A stretch of DNA of 64,000 nt from Nocardioides hwasunensis (lineage in GTDB: Bacteria > Actinomycetota > Actinomycetes > Propionibacteriales > Nocardioidaceae), in NCBI RefSeq assembly GCF_014779665.1, contig NZ_JACXYY010000007.1, positions 248,001 to 312,000 of the forward strand. Reading direction: 5' to 3'. The translations under genes were made by a program, and so were the position numbers. Each line of letters begins with the position of its first letter. The stretch's first letter is position 1. The notes under the pieces were generated by a model that was not told the DNA's origin, ran no database searches, and saw only the letters and a list, made by a program, of their open reading frames with translations. Below, in pieces: positions 21,400 through 30,588 of this stretch.

Positions 21400-21419
21400 G
21401 CTGACCGCCCCGGGTCAGC
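21400..21419. terminator. Hairpin between convergent genes
   Basis: A perfect 7-bp stem, GCTGACC/GGTCAGC, with a 6-nt GC loop lies between the small orphan gene and the alcohol dehydrogenase gene, overlapping the dehydrogenase stop. Confidence 0.6.
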
Positions 21420-22452
21420 GGGCGGGGTCGACGATCGTCATCCCGGCGACGGTGAGCCGGTCGAAGCCGGGCAGCAGGAGCGAGGCCTCCGCCAGGTCGA
21501 CCGTGCGCTCGACCAGTCGCTGCTGCTCCAGGTCCCCGGAGGCGATCAGCGCCATCATGGCCGGATAGTCGACCGCGGCCATGCCGTGGCTGCCCAGGAG
21601 GTCGAGCTCCCAGGCGATCACCCGGTCCATCGGCACGCGCGGGTGACCGTCGACCGGAGGCAGCAGGCCCACCTGTGCGAGCCGACCTCGCCGCCGTAGG
21701 CCGAGGATGGCCGCGGAGCACGTCTGCTCGCTCCCGACCGCGTCGACCGCCACGTGGCTGCCGCCGCCCGTGAGGTCGGCGACGATCGCCGCGACGTCGG
21801 CTCCGTCGGCGAGGACGGCGTGCTCGGCCCCCAGCCCGGTCGCGACCTCGAGCGCCTCGGCGTGGCGGTCGACCGCCACCACCCGAGCGCCGAGCGCTCG
21901 GGCGATCATGAGCGCGCTGAGGCCCACGCCGCCCGCGCCCACGACGCACACCCACTCGCCCGGCGCCACCTGCGCGCGACCGACGAGCGCGCGGTACGCA
22001 GTGGCGAACCGGCAGCCCAGCGCGGCCGCGGCGGTGGTCTCCACCTCCTCGGGAACGGCGACCAGGTTGGTGTCGGCCGCGTGCAGCGCCACGAGCTCGG
22101 CGAAGGACCCCCAGTGGGTGAAGCCCGGCTGCTGCTGGTCGGGACAGACCTGTGCGTTGCCGCTGGCGCACCACTCGCAGCGCCCGCACCCGCACACGAA
22201 GGGGACGGTGACCCGGTCGCCCGGCTGCCAGCGCGTGACCCCGGCGCCGACCTCGACGACCTCGCCGGCCAGCTCGTGACCGGGCACGTGCGGGAAGGCG
22301 ATGTCGTCGTGGCCCGCCCAGGCGTGCCAGTCGCTGCGGCACAGGCCCGTCGCCTGGACCCGTACGACGACACCGCCCTCGGGTGCCGAGGGATCGGGGA
22401 CCTCGCGGACCTCCGGCTGTGCCCTGACGGCATCGACCACCATCGCTCGCAT
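21415..22452 (-). CDS. Zinc-dependent alcohol dehydrogenase
   Basis: A 345-residue medium-chain zinc alcohol dehydrogenase. Catalytic zinc ligands are seen in TGLCRSDWHAW and GHELAGE, and the structural zinc cysteines in CGCGRCEWCASGNAQVC. The Rossmann motif is VVGAGGVGLSA near residue 175. The sequence resembles the threonine/sorbitol/formaldehyde-type branch; the substrate is unknown. ATG at 22452 or 22443 is possible. It lies 50 bp downstream of deoA on the same strand and could share its transcript, which would link it to deoxyribose or nucleoside breakdown. That link is only positional. Confidence 0.9.
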   Translation of the reverse strand: MRAMVVDAVRAQPEVREVPDPSAPEGGVVVRVQATGLCRSDWHAWAGHDDIAFPHVPGHELAGEVVEVGAGVTRWQPGDRVTVPFVCGCGRCEWCASGNAQVCPDQQQPGFTHWGSFAELVALHAADTNLVAVPEEVETTAAAALGCRFATAYRALVGRAQVAPGEWVCVVGAGGVGLSALMIARALGARVVAVDRHAEALEVATGLGAEHAVLADGADVAAIVADLTGGGSHVAVDAVGSEQTCSAAILGLRRRGRLAQVGLLPPVDGHPRVPMDRVIAWELDLLGSHGMAAVDYPAMMALIASGDLEQQRLVERTVDLAEASLLLPGFDRLTVAGMTIVDPAR

Positions 22453-22502: not shown

Positions 22503-23783
22503 CTAGCCGATCCGTGCGAGCACGCGGTCGTGCGGCGGGGGGCTCGGCGCCTCCGGGGTCGTCGCGGCGATGGCGTCGGTGAGGGACATGGCGGCCGCCA
22601 TCCGATCGGGGGAGGAGGAGTGGACCCGCGCGACCTGCTGCCCCGCACTGACCCGGGTGCCGGCCGAGACCAGCAGCTCGACACCCGCGGTGAGGTCGAC
22701 CTCGTCCTCCTTGCGCTCGCGTCCGGTGCCGGCGGCACGCCCGACCGCGGCGACCTCCCACGCGTCGAGGACGAGGTGCCCCTCCGTGGTCGCGACGACG
22801 TGCTCGACGTGCGTCGCGGTCGGGAGGGTCTGGTCGGGATCGCCACCCTGGGCGGCCACCATGCGTCGCCACACGTCGTACGCGCTGCCGTCGGCGAGCT
22901 TGGTCGCGGGATCCACGTCGATGCCCGCGTGGCGCACCATCTCCCGCGCGAGGGCCAAGGTGAGCTCGACGACGTCGCTCGGCCCGCCGCCCTGCAGGAC
23001 CTCGACCGCCTCGCGGACCTCAAGCGCGTTGCCGACGGTGAGGCCGAGCGGGGTGCTCATGTCCGTCAGCAGGGCGCTCGTCGCGACCCCGAACCGGGTC
23101 GCGGTCCCGACCAGGGCACGGGCGAGCTCGGTGGCCTGGTCGAGGTCCTTCATGAAGGCGCCACTGCCGACCTTCACGTCGAGGACGAGGCCCTGGGTGC
23201 CCTCGGCGATCTTCTTGCCCAGGACGCTCGCGACGATGAGCGGGACGGACTCCACCGTGCCGGTGATGTCGCGCAGGGCGTACATGAGCCGGTCGGCGGG
23301 GGCGAGGTCGTCGCTCTGGCCGCTGATGACACCGCCGACCTCGGTCAGGATGCGGTGCTGCTCGTCGGGGGTGAGCCGGGCGCGCCAGCCGAGGTAGGAC
23401 TCCATCTTGTCGAGCGTGCCGCCGGTGTGCCCGAGCGCCCGACCGGCGGTCTGCGGGACGACGGCGCCACAGGCGACGACGAGGGGGACCAGCGGGAGGC
23501 TGATCTTGTCGCCCACCCCGCCCGTCGAGTGCTTGTCGACCGCGGGTCGACCCAGCGCCGACAGGTCGTGTCGGTGGCCCGAGTCGATCACGGCTCCGGT
23601 GAGGGCGACGGTCTCCGCCTCCGAGGCGCCCCAGCAGCACACGGCCATGCAGAACGCCGCCATCTGCTCGTGGGCCACCTCGCCGGCGACGTATCCCTCC
23701 ACCAGTCCGCGGATCTCCGCGGGGGTGAGCTCCTCGCCGTGTCGCTTCCTGTTCAGCAGCTGTGGGACGGACTGACGACTCAC
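22503..23783 (-). CDS. deoA: Thymidine phosphorylase
   Basis: Cleaves thymidine or deoxyuridine with phosphate to base and 2-deoxyribose-1-phosphate. The length of 426 residues is typical of pyrimidine nucleoside phosphorylases. The KHSTGGVGDKISLPL motif binds phosphate, and SGRALGHTGGTLDK-like sequence (AGRALGHTGGTLDKME) follows. The GTG at 23783 has AGGAG 6 nt upstream. It diverges from the ABC/deaminase operon, and a LacI-type operator (23795-23810) sits 12 bp before its start codon, so both arms are probably repressed together. Confidence 0.96.
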   Translation of the reverse strand: MSRQSVPQLLNRKRHGEELTPAEIRGLVEGYVAGEVAHEQMAAFCMAVCCWGASEAETVALTGAVIDSGHRHDLSALGRPAVDKHSTGGVGDKISLPLVPLVVACGAVVPQTAGRALGHTGGTLDKMESYLGWRARLTPDEQHRILTEVGGVISGQSDDLAPADRLMYALRDITGTVESVPLIVASVLGKKIAEGTQGLVLDVKVGSGAFMKDLDQATELARALVGTATRFGVATSALLTDMSTPLGLTVGNALEVREAVEVLQGGGPSDVVELTLALAREMVRHAGIDVDPATKLADGSAYDVWRRMVAAQGGDPDQTLPTATHVEHVVATTEGHLVLDAWEVAAVGRAAGTGRERKEDEVDLTAGVELLVSAGTRVSAGQQVARVHSSSPDRMAAAMSLTDAIAATTPEAPSPPPHDRVLARIG

Positions 23784-23794
23784 GGGATCTCCTA

Positions 23795-23810
23795 GGTCAA
23801 TCGTATGACT
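23795..23810. promoter_or_regulatory. LacI-type operator O1, deoA side
   Basis: Read on the minus strand, the 16-mer is AGTCATACGATTGACC. It shares the 10-mer AGTCATACGA with operator O2 and has the central CG pair typical of LacI-family sites. It lies just upstream of the deoA ribosome site, where it would block transcription. Confidence 0.8.
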
Positions 23811-23894: not shown

Positions 23895-23910
23895 AGTCAT
23901 ACGAATGACT
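23895..23910. promoter_or_regulatory. LacI-type operator O2, ABC operon side
   Basis: AGTCATACGAATGACT has perfect 6-bp arms, AGTCAT and ATGACT, around a CG-centred core. It directly follows the -10 hexamer. Its centre is exactly 100 bp from that of O1, a spacing that would allow looping. The likely ligand is the LacI protein encoded at 29563-30588. Confidence 0.85.
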
Positions 23911-23963
23911 GCTGGCCATCCGGGTCGGCTCTCGGGCCCATGACGCGCATCGGAGAAGACATC

Positions 23964-24998
23964 ATGAAGCGGAAAGCCCTGGCAGCGGTCGCTGCCCTCG
24001 GACTGATGGCGGCCGCGGGCTGCGGGTCGTCGGGCGACGGCTCGGGATCCGGCGACTCGATCGTCTGGGTCGACGGGGGCGGAGCCTTCCACGAGGCGAT
24101 CGACCAGGGCGTCCTCCAGCCCTACGCGAGCGAGAACGACGTCGACATCGTCTCCGAGGCCGGCACCGACAACGCGAAGCTCCGCGCCATGGTCGAGGCC
24201 GACCGGGTGACCTGGGACGTCTACAACGGTGACAACACCTGGGGCACGGAGGCCGACTCCGACTACCTCGAGCCGCTGGACTACTCGGTCATCCCCGAGG
24301 ACGAGATCCTGGACGGCTATGCCTCGAAGTACCGCGTCGCCAACACGATCTACTCCATCCAGCTCGCCTGGAACACCGACAAGGTCAGTGGCACTCCCCA
24401 GGGGTGGGCCGACTTCTTCGACACCGAGACCTATCCCGGCAAGCGCGCCGTCATGGACTACTCCGTCGGTGGCATCGTCGAGATCGCGCTCCTCGCCGAC
24501 GGCGTCGCCCCCGAGGACCTCTACCCCCTCGACCTCGACCGCGCGATCGCGAAGCTCGACACGATCAAGGACGACCTGGTCTTCTGGACCAGCGGCGCCG
24601 AGTCGGAGGACCTCGTCGGCTCCGGTGAGGTCGCGATGGTGATGACCTACAACGCGCGCGCCTACGACGTGAAGAACGAGCTCGGCAAGCCCGTGGACTA
24701 CACCTTCCGCGACCAGATCCTCGCCGCCTCCTACCTCTCGGTCCCCAAGGGGACCAAGAACAAGGACGCCGCGATGGAGCTGATCGCCTACGCCGTCGGG
24801 GCCGACGCCAACGGCAAGCCGAGCCAGTACCTCCCGCTCGCCCCGTCGAACACCGCCGCGACCCCCGACGCCGCGATGGAGAAGGACCTCCCGACCGCGC
24901 ACCTCGACGAGCCGCACGCCGAGTTCGACGACGTGTGGATCGCCGAGAACTCAGCCGACGTCGAGGCCGCCTACCAGAAGTGGCGCTCCACGCTCTGA
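23964..24998 (+). CDS. ABC transporter substrate-binding lipoprotein
   Basis: A 344-residue receptor with a lipoprotein signal: MKRKALAAVAALGLMAAAGC, with the lipidated Cys near residue 20. The mature domain resembles the PotD/PotF-type extracellular solute-binding family (VWDVYNGD-like WDVYNGDNTWGTEAD, RAVMDYSVGG, MVMTYNARAYD). Family membership suggests polyamine-like ligands, but the operon encodes nucleoside enzymes, so a nucleoside or nucleoside conjugate is my inference. ATG 23964 has GGAGA 7 nt upstream and starts the signal peptide cleanly; ATG 23940 does not. Confidence 0.9.
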   Translation: MKRKALAAVAALGLMAAAGCGSSGDGSGSGDSIVWVDGGGAFHEAIDQGVLQPYASENDVDIVSEAGTDNAKLRAMVEADRVTWDVYNGDNTWGTEADSDYLEPLDYSVIPEDEILDGYASKYRVANTIYSIQLAWNTDKVSGTPQGWADFFDTETYPGKRAVMDYSVGGIVEIALLADGVAPEDLYPLDLDRAIAKLDTIKDDLVFWTSGAESEDLVGSGEVAMVMTYNARAYDVKNELGKPVDYTFRDQILAASYLSVPKGTKNKDAAMELIAYAVGADANGKPSQYLPLAPSNTAATPDAAMEKDLPTAHLDEPHAEFDDVWIAENSADVEAAYQKWRSTL

Positions 24999-25038: not shown

Positions 25039-25887
25039 ATGTCGCAACCCAGGACCGGGTCGTTGCACTGGCTGCTGATCATGCCGCTCCTGTGCCTGCT
25101 CGCCCTGTTCTTCGTCGCGCCGCTCTACTTCGTCATCGAGCGTGGCTTCACCGACCCGGCCGGCGCCGGACTCGACAACTACCGTCGTGTGCTCGACGAC
25201 CCGGCCGCCCGCCGCTTCGCGTGGAACACCGTCCGCACGGCCGTCACCGTCACGGTGTGTGCCTCCCTGCTCGGCTACACCTACGCCTACGCGACCTTCA
25301 AGGCGTCACGGCGCATGCGGGTGTTCCTGCTCTACTGCGTGCTGGTGCCCTTCTGGACGAGCCTGCTCGTACGGACCTACGCCTGGGCCGTGATGCTCCG
25401 CGACGAGGGCGTCATCAACAAGACGCTGGCCTCGCTGGGCATGATCGATGCGCCGCTGCCACTGCTGCGCAACAGCTTCGCGGTCACGCTCGGGATGACC
25501 CAGATCCTGCTGCCCTTCGTGATCCTGCCCTGCTACAGCGCGATGACGCGCGTGGACGTCAGCCTCGTGCAGGCCGCCCGCAGCCTCGGCGCGAGCCCCA
25601 CGAAGGCGTTCTTCCGCGTGTTCTTGCCACTCACGAGGCCCGGGCTGGCGGCGGGCGCGTTCCTCACCTTCATCCTGGCGACCGGCTACTACATCACCCC
25701 GGTGCTCCTCGGAGGACCAGGCGACCAGCCGATCGCCGTGCTCATCGAGAACGCGGTCCAGCAGCAGGGTGACTGGGGCCTGGCGGGTGCCCTGGCGGCG
25801 CTGACGACCGTGATGGTGCTCGTCGCGCTGATGGCCGGGTGGCGCTCGCTGACGCGCTCGGTGCTCGAGACCGGAAGGAAGAGCTGA
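25039..25887 (+). CDS. ABC permease, PotB-like
   Basis: A 282-residue inner-membrane permease with six TM helices and the EAA-type cytoplasmic loop (VQAARSLGASPTKAFFRVFLPLTRPG). It belongs to the spermidine/putrescine-type permease family and pairs with the next gene to form the translocation channel. ATG 25039 has AGGAGG 5 nt upstream. The stop overlaps the next ATG (TGATG), showing translational coupling. Confidence 0.92.
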   Translation: MSQPRTGSLHWLLIMPLLCLLALFFVAPLYFVIERGFTDPAGAGLDNYRRVLDDPAARRFAWNTVRTAVTVTVCASLLGYTYAYATFKASRRMRVFLLYCVLVPFWTSLLVRTYAWAVMLRDEGVINKTLASLGMIDAPLPLLRNSFAVTLGMTQILLPFVILPCYSAMTRVDVSLVQAARSLGASPTKAFFRVFLPLTRPGLAAGAFLTFILATGYYITPVLLGGPGDQPIAVLIENAVQQQGDWGLAGALAALTTVMVLVALMAGWRSLTRSVLETGRKS

Positions 25888-26672
25888 TGTCCCTCGTCGC
25901 GAGGGTCCTGCGCCCGCTGCCCGTCCTGCTCATCGTGCTGCTGCTCGTGCTGCCGTCGCTGGTGGTCGTGCCGATGAGCTTCTCCTCCTCGCAGATCCTC
26001 GAGTTCCCGCCGCAGGGCTTCAGCCTGCGCTGGTACGAGGCGATCGCGGGCAACGCCGTCTGGCTCGAGGCCGCGCGCAACAGCCTGGCCGTGGCCCTCG
26101 CGGTCGTCGTGCTGTCCACGCTCATCGGCGCGCCGGCCGGGATCGCCATCGGTCTGTGGCGCTGGCGAGGACGGTCCCTCTTCCTCGGCTTCGCCCTGGT
26201 GCCGGCCGTGATGCCCCCCATGGTCCTGGCGATCGGCATGTACATCACCTACGCGCGCTTCGACCTGGTCGGCTACTGGGGCCTGGTCGCCGCGCACACC
26301 GTGATGGCGCTCCCGTTCGTGGTGCTCACGGTGATGTCCAGCGCCCAGCTCGTCGACCCGACCCTCCTCACGGCCGCGCAGAGCCTGGGTGCGAAGCGGT
26401 GGCGCGTGCTCGTCGAGATCGTGCTACCCCTGGTCAAGGGCGGCATGGCCGCAGGGGCGATCTTCGCGTTCATCACCTCGTGGGACGAGGTGGTCGTCGC
26501 GATCTACCTGACCGACCCGACGTTCAAGACCCTGCCCGTCGTCATGTGGAACCAGCTGCGGGAGCGGGTCGATCCCAACGTCGCTGTCGTGGCCACCTTG
26601 CTGTTCGCGGTGACCAGCCTGGTCATGGCGTACGTCGTGCTCAAGGGAGAGAGGAAGAAGCGTGTCCAGTGA
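25887..26672 (+). CDS. ABC permease, PotC-like
   Basis: A 261-residue permease with six TM helices. The EAA loop, TAAQSLGAKRWRVLVEIVLPLVKGG, contacts the ATPase. It is the second half of the heterodimeric channel and starts one base inside the previous gene's stop codon. Its 3' end overlaps the ATPase gene by 11 bp. Confidence 0.92.
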   Translation: MSLVARVLRPLPVLLIVLLLVLPSLVVVPMSFSSSQILEFPPQGFSLRWYEAIAGNAVWLEAARNSLAVALAVVVLSTLIGAPAGIAIGLWRWRGRSLFLGFALVPAVMPPMVLAIGMYITYARFDLVGYWGLVAAHTVMALPFVVLTVMSSAQLVDPTLLTAAQSLGAKRWRVLVEIVLPLVKGGMAAGAIFAFITSWDEVVVAIYLTDPTFKTLPVVMWNQLRERVDPNVAVVATLLFAVTSLVMAYVVLKGERKKRVQ

Positions 26673-27828
26673 GACCCGTACCGGCAGCGAGGCCGGCCCG
26701 TCGCCCAGCGGCCCTCCGGGAGCCGCCGCGCGCGCCCGCGCCGGCACCACGCCGACCGGTGCCGTCCCGGTCGAGCTGCGGGGGGTGAGCAAGTCCTACG
26801 GGACGGAGGTCGCCGTCGCGCCGCTCGACCTCACCGTCGAGGCGGGCTCCTTCGTCTCCTTCCTCGGCCCTTCGGGGTCGGGCAAGACGACGACGCTGAA
26901 GATGATCTCCGGCTTCGAGCGACCCGATGAGGGTGCCGTGCTCTTCGGGGACCGCGACATCACCTCCCAGCCGCCCGAGCAGCGCGGGGTCGGGGTGGTG
27001 TTCCAGAACTACTCGCTCTTCCCGCACATGTCCGTCGCGAAGAACGTCGAGTTCCCCCTCCGGATGCGCGGTGTGGATCGCAGCGACCGGTCGAGGCGGG
27101 TCCGCGCGGCGCTCGAGCTCGTCGAGCTGCCCCACGTCGCGAGCCGCAGTCCGCACGAGCTCTCGGGCGGGCAGCAGCAGCGCGTCGCGATCGCCCGCGC
27201 GCTGGTCTTCGACCCGGCGCTGCTGCTCATGGACGAGCCGCTCGGCGCGCTCGACCGACGCCTGCGCGAGACGATGCAGCTGGAGATCAAGGCCCTGCAC
27301 GAGCGGCTCGACGTCACGATCATCTACGTCACGCACGACCAGGAGGAGGCCCTGGCCATGTCCGACCAGATCGTCGTGTTCAACCAGGGCCGCGTCGAGC
27401 AGGTCGGGACGCCGCAGGACGTCTACGACCGACCGCGGTCGCTGTTCGTGGCCGACTTCCTCGGGGAGTCGTTCTCCATCAGCGGCCAGGTCACCGGGGG
27501 CGCCTTCACCGCGGACGGCGACGTGCCGCTCCGCCTCGACGTCGCTGACGTCGAAGAGGGGCCGGCCCGCTCCATCTGGCGGTCGGGGTCGGTCTCGGCA
27601 GCACCGCGGCCCGGGGAACGTGACTCGTGGGCGTGCGTGCCGACGACGGTCGTCGCCTCGGCGTTCGCCGGGGACCACCTCAAGCTCAAGCTGCGAGTCG
27701 CCTCCGGCGACGAGGGGATCGTGTCGGTCCCGCCCACCTCGAGCGTCCCGATCGCCGGGGACGCCCTCGACATCTACGTCGACCACGCCCGTGCCGTGGT
27801 CGTGAGCGCCTCAGGAGGAACCGCATGA
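26662..27828 (+). CDS. ABC transporter ATP-binding protein
   Basis: A 388-residue ATPase of the spermidine/putrescine (PotA-like) type. An unusual ~30-residue Ser/Pro/Ala-rich N-terminal extension precedes the domain. Walker A GPSGSGKTT lies near residue 70, the signature is LSGGQQQR, Walker B is LLLMDEPLGALD, and the H-loop is VTHDQEEAL. The C-terminal ~120 residues hold a divergent TOBE-like region. The GTG at 26662 overlaps the permease gene, and the stop overlaps the deaminase ATG (ATGA). It powers the two permeases. Confidence 0.93.
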   Translation: MSSETRTGSEAGPSPSGPPGAAARARAGTTPTGAVPVELRGVSKSYGTEVAVAPLDLTVEAGSFVSFLGPSGSGKTTTLKMISGFERPDEGAVLFGDRDITSQPPEQRGVGVVFQNYSLFPHMSVAKNVEFPLRMRGVDRSDRSRRVRAALELVELPHVASRSPHELSGGQQQRVAIARALVFDPALLLMDEPLGALDRRLRETMQLEIKALHERLDVTIIYVTHDQEEALAMSDQIVVFNQGRVEQVGTPQDVYDRPRSLFVADFLGESFSISGQVTGGAFTADGDVPLRLDVADVEEGPARSIWRSGSVSAAPRPGERDSWACVPTTVVASAFAGDHLKLKLRVASGDEGIVSVPPTSSVPIAGDALDIYVDHARAVVVSASGGTA

Positions 27829-28253
27829 CCGTCACCGATGCCGACGTGGCACGCCTCGTCGACGCCGCCACCGCGGCCCGGACACACGCCTACGCCCCGT
27901 ACTCCGTCCACCACGTCGGGGCCTCCGTCCTGACCCTCGACGGAAGCGTGTTCGCCGGTGCCAACATGGAGACCGTCACTCTCCAGGCCTCGGTCCACGC
28001 CGAGCGATCCGCCGTCGTCGCCATGGCCAACGCCGGGCACCGTCGCCTGCGGGCGGTCTGCGTCGTCGGCCCCTACTCCGGCATCCCGTGCTCGGAGTGC
28101 CGCCAGACGGTGTGGGAGTTCTGTGGCGCCGACCCCGACGTGGTGGTCGTCAGTGCCCCCACCGACGGCCCGCTCGAGCTGCTCACCATGGGCGCCATCG
28201 CGCCCTTCCCCTACGGCCCCGAGACCAAGGGCATCGACCCCACCCAGCACTGA
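27825..28253 (+). CDS. Cytidine deaminase-like enzyme
   Basis: A 142-residue zinc deaminase of the small CDA type. His58-Ala-Glu60 and Pro-Cys89-x-x-Cys92 supply the zinc ligands and the catalytic glutamate, and AGANMETVT is the substrate loop. Most tetrameric CDAs of this size use Cys-Ala-Glu; a His first ligand is typical of the larger dimeric E. coli type. NMET replaces the usual NVEN/NIEN segment that reads the ribose. Deamination of cytidine, deoxycytidine or a modified nucleoside is expected. Translationally coupled to the ATPase gene by ATGA. Confidence 0.88.
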   Translation: MTVTDADVARLVDAATAARTHAYAPYSVHHVGASVLTLDGSVFAGANMETVTLQASVHAERSAVVAMANAGHRRLRAVCVVGPYSGIPCSECRQTVWEFCGADPDVVVVSAPTDGPLELLTMGAIAPFPYGPETKGIDPTQH

Positions 28254-28332: not shown

Positions 28333-29538
28333 ATGACGAACACCAACGCCGACGCCCGCATCGAGTGGGTCCAGTCCCAGTGCCGGCTCCTCCGAGCCCT
28401 GCGCGAGGAGTACGAGCAGACGCGGCCCTTCGAGGCCATGACCATCGGCACCGGCATCCACCTCGAGCCCAAGACGGTCACCCTGTTGCTCGCCCTGGCC
28501 GCTGGCGGCGCCAACGTCGTCAGCACGGGCAACCTGAACACCACCCAGCCGACGGCCGTGGACTACCTGCGTCGCCACGGCGTCACCGTCGTCGGAGGAC
28601 CCACCCGTGACCGTGCGGAGCACCAGGGCTTCCTCGCCGAGGTCATCGCCCACGAGCCGGACCTGATCCTCGACAACGGAGGCGACCTGTTCGCCCGCTA
28701 CCTCGAGGCGCCCTACGAGGGTCTGCGCGGTGGCACCGAGGAGACGACCTCGGGACGCACTCGCCTCGCCGGTCTCCGCGATCGGCTGGACATGCCCGTC
28801 CTCGTGATCAACGACAGCCCCATCAAGCAGTTCGGCGAGAACCGGCACGCCGTGGGTCAGAGCGTGTTCGAGTCGATGCTGCGGATCACCAACATCATGA
28901 CCAACGGCAAGCGGGTCACCGTCTTCGGCTACGGCGAGTGCGGCCGCGGTGTCGCGATGAACTTCCGCAACGCCTTCGCGCAGGTCACCGTCGTCGACCA
29001 CGACCCCGTCCGACGCCTGGAGGCCTTCCTCGACGGCTACGTCGTCGCCTCGCGCGAGGAGTCGATCCGCGGCGCCGACGTCCTGGTGACGGTCACCGGC
29101 GCGAGCGACGTCCTCACCGCGGCCGATCTGCCGCTCCTCAAGGACGACGCCATCTTGTCCAACGCCGGCCACTTCCCCTTCGAGATCGACGTCGCCGGCA
29201 TGTCGACCGACGCCTCCGTCAAGGACGTCGCCGCCAACGTGAACGGGATGGACACCTGGACCCTCGAGGACGGACGTCGAGTCCACGTGGTCGCAGAGGG
29301 ACACATGATGAACCTCAGTGGTCCGCTCCCGCTCGGCAACTCCATCGACTCCATGGACCTCGGCTTCGCGCTGCAGGCGCGCTGCCTCGAAGCAGTTGCC
29401 ACTGACCGCGTCGGACGGCGAGACTGCGTCGTCCCGGTGCCGCGGTTCATCGACGAGCGCGTCGCCAACGACTACCTCGCCTCCCGGACCACCGCCGAGG
29501 AGAGCGTCGGGCACAGCGCCGTTCCGCTGTCTCGATGA
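28333..29538 (+). CDS. Divergent SAH-hydrolase-fold NAD-dependent enzyme
   Basis: A 401-residue homologue of adenosylhomocysteinase. Conserved features include His43 (equivalent of human His55), Glu137 in EETT (Glu156), Lys165 in NDSPIK (Lys186), the NAD motif GYGECG at 199-204, and His280 in AGHF (His301). Altered positions are Asp131 to Asn115, Asp190 to Glu169 and Cys195 to Val174. The adenine-reading GHPS loop is replaced by LGNS, and the C-terminal Lys/Tyr NAD clasp is missing. It probably keeps the 3'-oxidation chemistry but acts on another nucleoside-type substrate; this is inference. ATG 28333 lies 79 bp after the deaminase gene. Confidence 0.82.
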   Translation: MTNTNADARIEWVQSQCRLLRALREEYEQTRPFEAMTIGTGIHLEPKTVTLLLALAAGGANVVSTGNLNTTQPTAVDYLRRHGVTVVGGPTRDRAEHQGFLAEVIAHEPDLILDNGGDLFARYLEAPYEGLRGGTEETTSGRTRLAGLRDRLDMPVLVINDSPIKQFGENRHAVGQSVFESMLRITNIMTNGKRVTVFGYGECGRGVAMNFRNAFAQVTVVDHDPVRRLEAFLDGYVVASREESIRGADVLVTVTGASDVLTAADLPLLKDDAILSNAGHFPFEIDVAGMSTDASVKDVAANVNGMDTWTLEDGRRVHVVAEGHMMNLSGPLPLGNSIDSMDLGFALQARCLEAVATDRVGRRDCVVPVPRFIDERVANDYLASRTTAEESVGHSAVPLSR

Positions 29539-29562: not shown

Positions 29563-30588
29563 ATGAAGCGGCCCGCGACCAGCACGGACGTGGCGCGTCG
29601 GGCCGGCGTCAGCCAGTCGACGGTGTCGCTCGTCCTCCGGGGCAAGGACGAAGGACGCGTGACCGCGGAGACCGCGGCCCGGGTCCGGGCCGCGGCGCGC
29701 GACCTGGACTACGAACCCAACGCCGTGGCGCTCAACCTCAAGCGCGGGCGGGCCGACGTCGTCGCGCTCGTCGTGCCCACCATCACCCAGCCCTACTTCG
29801 CCAGCGTGCTCGTGGAGGCCGAGAAGGAGGCCCGGGGGGCCGGTTGCGACGTGATCCTCTTCGACAGCGGCGGCGACGACGACTGGACCCACCGGCTCGC
29901 CCGCATGGTCCGGAGCACACAGCTCGACGGGGCCATCGTGTGGGCACCGACCGACGACGAGGTCGCGGCCCTCACGAGCATCCGGGACCGCCTGGTGCTC
30001 GTCGAGGCAGGCTCGGACCAGTTCACCCGGATCGACCTCCAGATCGAGCACGGTGCGAGCCTCGTCGCCGAGCACCTCGCCGGGCTCGGGCACCGACGGG
30101 TCGGCTACTTCGCCGTGCACCCGGCCCGGGAGACCTACCTCAGACGACGGCGCGCACTCGCCGACTCCCTCGGCGAGCACGACGGCGTGATCGTGGAGAC
30201 GTGCTCGATCGAGTCGGCCCTCGACCTCGACGCCGCCGAGCAGGCCGCCGGCGCCATGCTCGACGCGATCGGTGCGGACGACTCCGTCACCGCGGTCGTG
30301 TGCGACGACGACCTCCTGGCCGCCGCGCTGGTCACCGTGTGCGCCGAGCGGGACGTCGCCGTCCCTGGCCGGGTCTCGGTCGTGGGATACGGCGACCTGA
30401 CCATCTCGCGCCTGGTCCGCCCCCAGCTGACCACGGTGAGCCTCCCGCCATCGGTGGGCAGGCTCGCCATGTCGTCCTTGCTCGACGCCGTGCGGGGCAG
30501 GCCGCGCACGCGGCGCACGCCAGGCCTGGTCTCCGTGCCGGTGACGCTCGTCGAGCGGGCGTCGAGCGCCGCGCCGCAGCAGCTCTGA
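29563..30588 (+). CDS. LacI family repressor of the nucleoside locus
   Basis: A 341-residue LacI/GalR regulator. The HTH and hinge are TSTDVARRAGVSQSTVSLVLRG and the following EPNAVALNLKRGRADVV (to ~residue 60), and a periplasmic-binding-like effector domain follows. It lies 24 bp after the SAH-hydrolase-like gene and ends the operon. Two matching LacI-type operators flank the divergent deoA/ABC promoter region, so I infer repression of both arms with a nucleoside or sugar-phosphate inducer. A strong hairpin follows its stop. Confidence 0.92.
   Translation: MKRPATSTDVARRAGVSQSTVSLVLRGKDEGRVTAETAARVRAAARDLDYEPNAVALNLKRGRADVVALVVPTITQPYFASVLVEAEKEARGAGCDVILFDSGGDDDWTHRLARMVRSTQLDGAIVWAPTDDEVAALTSIRDRLVLVEAGSDQFTRIDLQIEHGASLVAEHLAGLGHRRVGYFAVHPARETYLRRRRALADSLGEHDGVIVETCSIESALDLDAAEQAAGAMLDAIGADDSVTAVVCDDDLLAAALVTVCAERDVAVPGRVSVVGYGDLTISRLVRPQLTTVSLPPSVGRLAMSSLLDAVRGRPRTRRTPGLVSVPVTLVERASSAAPQQL

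Follow-up and report, generated by a model that had tools for sequence, protein, structure and literature searches.

In Nocardioides hwasunensis, a gene resembling S-adenosylhomocysteine (SAH) hydrolase (SAHH) is best read as encoding the enzyme that defines a module for the catabolism of an imported pyrimidine nucleoside. We assign this reading a probability of roughly 0.5. Rather than serving as the housekeeping SAHH, its product would take part in nucleoside breakdown through an NAD-dependent reaction on a nucleoside that is deaminated and carries a modified sugar. The gene lies in an operon within a 64,000-nucleotide stretch of DNA that was analysed as a whole and is called the window here. 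It is an additional copy, since a canonical SAHH (AhcY) is encoded elsewhere in the same genome (G000:C7:569518-570951), which answers a check proposed in the original prediction. Judged by alignment and phylogeny, it belongs to a scattered bacterial SAHH subfamily that shares its loss of the residue taking a proton from the sugar in the SAHH reaction and is a well-supported clade.

Operon Layout and Operator-Like Sites

The SAHH-like gene and its neighbors in the window are as follows.

21415..22452, minus strand: zinc alcohol dehydrogenase-like protein (family and start by eye)
22503..23783, minus strand: second copy of a pyrimidine-nucleoside/thymidine phosphorylase, running divergently from the operon (GTG start, placed by aligning it with locus L003)
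23795..23810, minus strand: LacI-type palindrome AGTCATACGATTGACC, 11 bases before the chosen phosphorylase start
23895..23910, plus strand: LacI-type palindrome AGTCATACGAATGACT, 100 bases from AGTCATACGATTGACC, start to start
23964..24998, plus strand: substrate-binding lipoprotein, PotD-like (start by eye at MKRKAL; the open reading frame opens at 23940)
25039..25887, plus strand: PotB-like permease (family models)
25884..26672, plus strand: PotC-like permease (family models)
26662..27828, plus strand: PotA-like ATPase (family models)
27825..28253, plus strand: variant cytidine deaminase of 142 aa (CDA-like), the genome's second copy (family models, alignment, tree)
28333..29538, plus strand: SAHH-like protein, 401 aa (open reading frame, Pfam, alignment, predicted structure)
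29563..30588, plus strand: LacI-family regulator, 24 bases after the SAHH-like gene

The PotD-like, permease, PotA-like and CDA-like genes follow one another with a gap of 40 bases and then overlaps of 4, 11, and 4 bases, the last between the PotA and CDA-like genes; the SAHH-like gene begins 79 bases after the CDA-like gene, and gaps within the operon range from -11 to 79 bases. The nearest solved relatives of the PotD-like protein bind polyamines/GABA, agropine, and mannopine. A palindrome scan of the window gave three strand matches against 0.15 expected, with none of 100 shuffles scoring as high, and no further LacI-type palindromes were found in the window at one mismatch. The arrangement recurs in a Nocardioides metagenome-assembled genome (MAG; L003, SAHH-like protein 85% identical), where phosphorylase, importer, deaminase, SAHH-like, and LacI genes stand in the same order with the same palindrome pair at the same 100-base spacing.

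An ordinary deaminase gene and an ordinary phosphorylase gene lie side by side elsewhere in the genome (C7:446468 and C7:446902), so that the deaminase, phosphorylase, and SAHH-like genes of the window are all extra copies. The window phosphorylase keeps the conserved motifs of the ordinary copy, and there was no sign of a rebuilt pocket; such conservation would be expected of an enzyme that receives an ordinary nucleoside at the end of the pathway. The zinc alcohol dehydrogenase-like gene, about 50 bases downstream of the phosphorylase gene, is a candidate module member that could act on one of the module's products.

A Predicted SAHH Fold Best Compared With Archaeal-Type Enzymes

The gene is real, and its product is predicted to be a full-length SAHH-fold protein. 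Both Pfam domains, AdoHcyase and AdoHcyase_NAD, score above their cut-offs in the 401-aa reading frame. An AlphaFold2 model from a 17-row alignment (mean pLDDT 87.7, pTM 0.84) replaced a weak earlier model built from the window protein and six relatives (pLDDT 67.9). A fold-level superposition, as called for by the original prediction and made with Foldseek and VIA-align, matched the predicted fold to SAH hydrolases over its whole length, with 7r39_A as the best PDB match (Z 48.4, 390 residues, rmsd 5.0), 7r37_A at Z 47.6, and human SAHH (1li4) at Z 42.7. The protein thus modeled has the SAHH fold and the NAD-binding domain expected of a functional AhcY. It falls below the cut-off of the TIGR00936 ahcY model (283.1 against 497.6 bits) and above that of the NCBIfam adenosylhomocysteinase model NF004005 (313.7 against 275), which the four other clade members tested also pass. 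Its nearest solved relatives by sequence, Thermotoga maritima 3x2e and Pyrococcus furiosus 7r37, are of the archaeal type, unlike human SAHH.

Residues were called from an alignment of the window protein with the T. maritima and P. furiosus enzymes and relatives. Human SAHH numbers are used below (D131, D190, C195, H353, and Lys426/Tyr430). Their spacings are consistent with the Lupinus and AgmF numbers in PMC13406329 and PMC8599513. The key positions of the window protein are H43, E45, K47, N115, E137, K165, E169, N170, V174, H280, and N336. The alignment upheld the predicted match of the NAD motif (GYGECGRG), H43, E137, K165, and H280 to SAHH catalytic residues, as well as the replacement of Asp131, Asp190, and Cys195 by Asn115, Glu169, and Val174. 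The GHPS loop had been described as replaced by LGNS. A change is indeed present, but the loop is not missing: after a two-residue insertion (GPLPLGNS), which occurs in the window protein's own subclade, it continues as G335-N336-S337. Because GHPS aligns as GNS, the real change is His353 to Asn336. The C-terminal Lys/Tyr contacts, in contrast to the loop, are truly absent from a shortened C-terminus that has neither Lys426 nor Tyr430.

Human SAHH is, by these comparisons, the wrong yardstick, and the archaeal-type SAH/S-inosylhomocysteine (SIH) hydrolases appear to be the right one. Archaeal-type SAHHs also lack the C-terminal Lys/Tyr contacts (PMC10978960, section 13), and the absence noted by the original prediction, though correct, does not mark out this protein. 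Nor does a non-Cys residue at position 195, which is Thr in all 36 archaeal-type rows of our table. Both are therefore archaeal-type traits, neither diagnostic by itself. Even so, the tail is shorter than in most relatives of this type, the median number of residues after P370 being 18 in the clade, 38 in archaeal-type rows (the two PDB rows in this group being cut by the local alignment), and 46 in canonical rows. The archaeal-type enzymes (T. maritima 3x2e/3x2f, P. furiosus 7r37) have in common with the window protein the fold, the clasp-less tail, H43/E137/K165/N170/H280, and the base motif HxExK, here H43-L-E45-P-K47. The window protein departs from them in Asp131 to Asn115, Asp190 to Glu169, Thr195 to Val174, His353 to Asn336, Ser to Gly at position 344, the two-residue insertion before GNS, and its nucleoside operon context. 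With canonical AhcY it shares the fold and the 3′-oxidation residues but lacks HxTxE(Q), Cys195, GHPS, and the long tail.

A Clade Sharing Four Active-Site Changes

Relatives were compared in a table of 77 rows, from which matches shorter than 300 residues and identical copies had been dropped; removal of one further copy of the window left 76 rows (26 clade, 36 archaeal-type, and 14 canonical). The four active-site changes co-occur in 26/26 clade rows and in 0/50 other SAHHs, a co-variation that rejects chance or misalignment as the source of the pattern. At the four positions, 25 clade rows have N/E/V/N and the other has N/E/V/D; among archaeal-type rows the combination is D/D/T/H in 33, D/N/T/H in two, and D/D/T/N in one, and every canonical row has D/D/C/H. 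The position of the base that removes the C4′ hydrogen is accordingly Asn throughout the clade and Asp in the 50 others. Further clade-specific positions are 66, 97, 158, 159, 344, and 352. Much of the remaining machinery is kept: HxExK in all 25 clade rows that reach the motif, E137, K165, and N170 in 26/26, and, in the 5′ channel, H43 in 25/25 readable rows, H280 in 26/26, and F281 in 22/26.

The clade forms one side of a branch in an unrooted tree with an SH-aLRT of 100 when the four trait columns are removed. Its support is 100/99, also unrooted, when ten clade-specific columns and 14 rows (four long rows and ten near-copies) are taken out, which argues against a long-branch artifact, with L020 remaining as a long row. 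The branch is separate from all archaeal-type rows (100/99), although the tree, being unrooted, does not fix its placement within the archaeal type. A phage origin was also rejected: in all ten relatives on viral contigs the D-N pair and GHP are intact, and the nine that are readable at position 131 have Asp there (L128 is the tenth).

Members are found in Nocardioides and other actinobacteria, rhizobia, Ruegeria, Rhodobacter and Silicimonas MAGs, Geminicoccus, Vibrio, and Photobacterium. They are rare in the genomes sampled: in the window's genus, three of 215 genomes have matches at E <= 1e-50, all in the clade. In the class of Ruegeria, 2/385 genomes match at E <= 1e-55, and in its phylum 7/398 at E <= 1e-48, all seven in the clade, one of them (G1075) carrying a copy of L023; each of these three counts includes the center genome. 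Among 396 actinobacterial genomes there were 236 matches, and motifs read in the 30 with loci placed three in the clade, the window included. Six other clade genomes have a separate canonical-type SAHH match, in two of them in pieces. No description of such a clade was found in the open-licence papers searched.

Several SAHH-like genes in the comparison set have unusual features of their own. L065 (G963) and L095 (G746) carry archaeal-type copies with Glu in place of the catalytic Lys and N-D instead of D-N, and L095 directly adjoins a canonical SAHH gene. On a plasmid of Roseateles sp. XES5 (L045:5929-8441), two adjacent SAHH-like genes are flanked by LacI and sugar ABC transporter genes; of the pair, the second has lost both catalytic His positions while keeping Asp131 and Asp190. 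Both His positions are likewise replaced (LPIEAKT, NAGG) in a Rubrobacter radiotolerans plasmid gene (L046:5947-7212), and Nonomuraea gerenzanensis has canonical and archaeal-type SAHH genes in tandem (L024:8222-11224).

The Partner Deaminase

The CDA-like protein of the window shares with tetrameric cytidine deaminase the zinc-site motifs HAE...PCxxC and the NxE pair, but differs in pocket motifs and tail. With the deaminases of L003, L091, and L092 it forms one clade (100/100) apart from 13 ordinary deaminases, in a tree from which two unusable rows had been dropped. In all four partners NxEN..Y, which with Phe24 belongs to the ordinary ribose/base pocket, is replaced by NxExVTLQ, Phe24 is His, PC[SA]ECRQ is present, and the protein ends in PYGPxTKGIDP; Phe24 to His also occurs in one ordinary deaminase, L111. 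In CDA structures, the Tyr and Ala changed here contact the 5′-OH, and the kept Asn and Glu the 3′-OH. Such contacts would point to a substrate altered at its 5′ end.

The idea that every clade genome has a dedicated variant deaminase was rejected. Among the 17 besides the window's, only G236, G1061, and G1193 have one; in 13 the best deaminase match reaches no more than 33-41% identity, and one genome has no match. Another genome, G1079, holds an intact variant deaminase (L136:9498-10169, 98% identical to that of L092) beside an IclR fragment. The surrounding 19.9 kb that were retrieved contain no match to the SAHH-like or symporter genes, so that the module appears to have been deleted there.

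Neighborhoods of Other Clade Members

In L091 and L092, whose SAHH-like proteins are 46% identical to that of the window, a variant deaminase gene again lies near the SAHH-like gene, and PotABCD and LacI are replaced by an SSS symporter (its family confirmed for L091) and a regulator that looks IclR-like by eye. A Vibrio nigripulchritudo plasmid (L020) has nucleoside hydrolase, SAHH-like, adenosine deaminase, and ribokinase genes in a row, with a CNT transporter gene 3.9 kb further on. L050 and L051 pair the SAHH-like gene with adenosine deaminase, and L048 has as its neighbor a binding protein whose match to a BMP-type model falls short of the cut-off. A deaminase, an SAHH-like enzyme, and a base-splitting enzyme are thus common to the pyrimidine operon of the window and the purine operon of L020. 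This overlap suggests a role for the SAHH-like enzyme in converting a deaminated nucleoside with an unusual sugar to an ordinary one.

Within 6 kb, nucleoside genes were found at 8/26 clade loci and 0/54 control loci; the queries came from clade loci, so that the window, L020, and L048 matched themselves, the eight represent about five lineages, and many of the control flanks extended for only about 1.5 kb (260,511 bases in total against 295,062). At the other 18/26 clade loci, no nucleoside gene among those searched lay within 6 kb. A LysR-like gene (by eye) is common to six alphaproteobacterial loci that have no nucleoside gene, and three of these have a Gfo/Idh/MocA oxidoreductase (family checked for two).

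A Proposed Pathway and Its Alternatives

What the substitutions mean for catalysis can be judged against characterized enzymes. In the Lupinus enzyme (LlSAHH), K235 and N240 serve 3′-OH oxidation, D139 takes the C4′ proton before elimination, and H62 protonates the leaving sulfur (PMC13406329, section 5). K165 and N170 of the window protein correspond to the Lys/Asn pair for 3′-OH oxidation, and H43 and H280 to the His residues for leaving group and water. The clade as a whole keeps this Lys/Asn pair and the leaving-group His, with Asn at the D139 position (Asn115, matched by spacing). Oxidation at the 3′-OH is therefore likely to be retained, but ordinary elimination is not assured, and with Asn115 in place of the C4′-H Asp the 4',5'-elimination may run differently from the usual way. 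The original prediction proposed that redox-elimination chemistry is retained on a different base or leaving group. Its general sense fits the context (a second cytidine deaminase, a second phosphorylase, a canonical SAHH elsewhere), but the elimination half is doubtful, and the base need not be an unknown one. HxExK enzymes prefer SIH, and the P. furiosus enzyme uses these residues to bind hypoxanthine at its N1/O6 edge (PMC10978960, sections 9 and 11). The motif points to an oxo base, hypoxanthine- or uracil-like, and would suit either kind, purine or pyrimidine.

In the favored account of a catabolic nucleoside module, the PotABCD-type importer would bring in a cytosine-type nucleoside with an altered sugar, probably at its 5′ end, and the variant deaminase would turn its base into the uracil type. 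Using NAD+ that it keeps tightly bound, the SAHH-like enzyme would bind the oxo base through E45/K47, oxidize the 3′-OH through K165/N170, remodel the sugar, most likely by removing or exchanging the 5′ substituent with H43/H280, and reduce it again to give an ordinary nucleoside for the second phosphorylase to split. LacI would control both transcription units. The analysis itself shows the predicted fold, the residues, the single clade, the layout of the operon, the operator-like palindromes, the second copies, and the recurring pairing with the deaminase; we infer the substrate class, order of steps, retained NAD redox, and LacI control. Several observations count against the account: the 18/26 loci without searched nucleoside genes nearby; the six alphaproteobacterial loci with a LysR-like gene; the variant deaminase in only 3/17 other clade genomes; G1079, where that deaminase stands without an SAHH-like gene in the fetched region; the Phe24 to His change in ordinary L111; and the passing of NF004005 by the window protein and four other members.

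The same redox apparatus could instead work without 4',5'-elimination, the 3′-keto intermediate leading to epimerization at C2′ or C3′ and thereby from arabino- or xylo-nucleosides to ribo-nucleosides. Asn at the C4′-H base position in all 26 rows would agree with this, as would the kept E137, K165, and N170 and the partner enzymes, whose deaminase and phosphorylase or nucleosidase activities would flank a conversion to an ordinary nucleoside. The preserved 5′ channel (H43, H280, and F281) suggests 5′ chemistry, however, no base for C2′ was identified, and the literature searched offered no precedent; passages from a nucleoside-antibiotic review, and a search by terms in the PenF paper, revealed no link between SAHH and arabinonucleosides. 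We regard epimerization as rather unlikely. Little probability is also given to a plain archaeal-type SIH/SAH hydrolase that tolerates the substitutions and salvages imported SAH-like compounds, even though HxExK, the short tail, the closest solved structures, the NF004005 match, and three members beside adenosine deaminase fit it. The C4′-H base is lost in every clade row, the genome already has a canonical SAHH, and the partners in the window are pyrimidine enzymes. AgmF, a dehydratase of angustmycin biosynthesis, bears on the same point: an SAHH-family enzyme that does not use SAH, as proposed here for the window protein, and whose NAD is enzyme-held, it needs D129 and D188, and alanine at either abolished its activity (PMC8599513). 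By spacing these are the two changed aspartates (SAHH D131/D190), Asn115 and Glu169 in the window protein. AgmF differs from it in being biosynthetic, with an adenine nucleoside as substrate, unlike the catabolic context of the window.

Two further readings depart more widely from the nucleoside-remodeling module. The SAHH-like protein could be a redox-neutral nucleosidase, working like GH4 and GH109 glycosidases, in which 3′-oxidation, removal of the C2′ hydrogen, and expulsion of the base are followed by hydration and reduction. Loss of the C4′-H base and the reach of Glu169, one carbon longer than Asp190, could be accommodated by such an enzyme, and free nucleobase escapes from SAHHs as a by-product (PMC10978960, section 7). 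Base release is already covered by the phosphorylase in the window or the nucleoside hydrolase in L020, and we hold this reaction improbable. Human AHCYL/IRBIT proteins (3gvp, 3mtg) share the SAHH fold (Z 37.9 for 3gvp_A) and are described as regulatory. A similarly non-catalytic or NAD-sensing role would explain the loss of the catalytic Asp, but it is very unlikely given a gene in a catabolic operon and K165, N170, H280, and H43 kept in every readable clade row.

Implications

Because the C4′-H base is lost, the subfamily shares the change, and the operon context is one of nucleosides, the database label SAHH is probably wrong for the window protein. With five tested clade members passing an adenosylhomocysteinase model, genomes are probably mislabeled and may seem to have two SAHHs. 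More broadly, and only tentatively, a branch of the SAHH family may have moved from the purine chemistry of the methyl cycle to NAD-mediated sugar remodeling of pyrimidine (elsewhere deaminated purine) nucleosides, paired with a dedicated deaminase and dispensing with Asp131 for C4′-H removal, whether by epimerizing or by using another base or the substrate itself. If true, this sugar-remodeling branch would be a new step in nucleoside catabolism with its own deaminase, in a family whose SAH hydrolase is generally treated as a strictly conserved enzyme. By having the 3′-oxidation apparatus without the described C4′-H base, the clade offers a natural experiment on ways in which the chemistry of the family can be redirected. 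An uncharacterized route for using sugar-modified nucleosides is suggested by the operons, whose importer, regulator, and operator-like sites make it testable.
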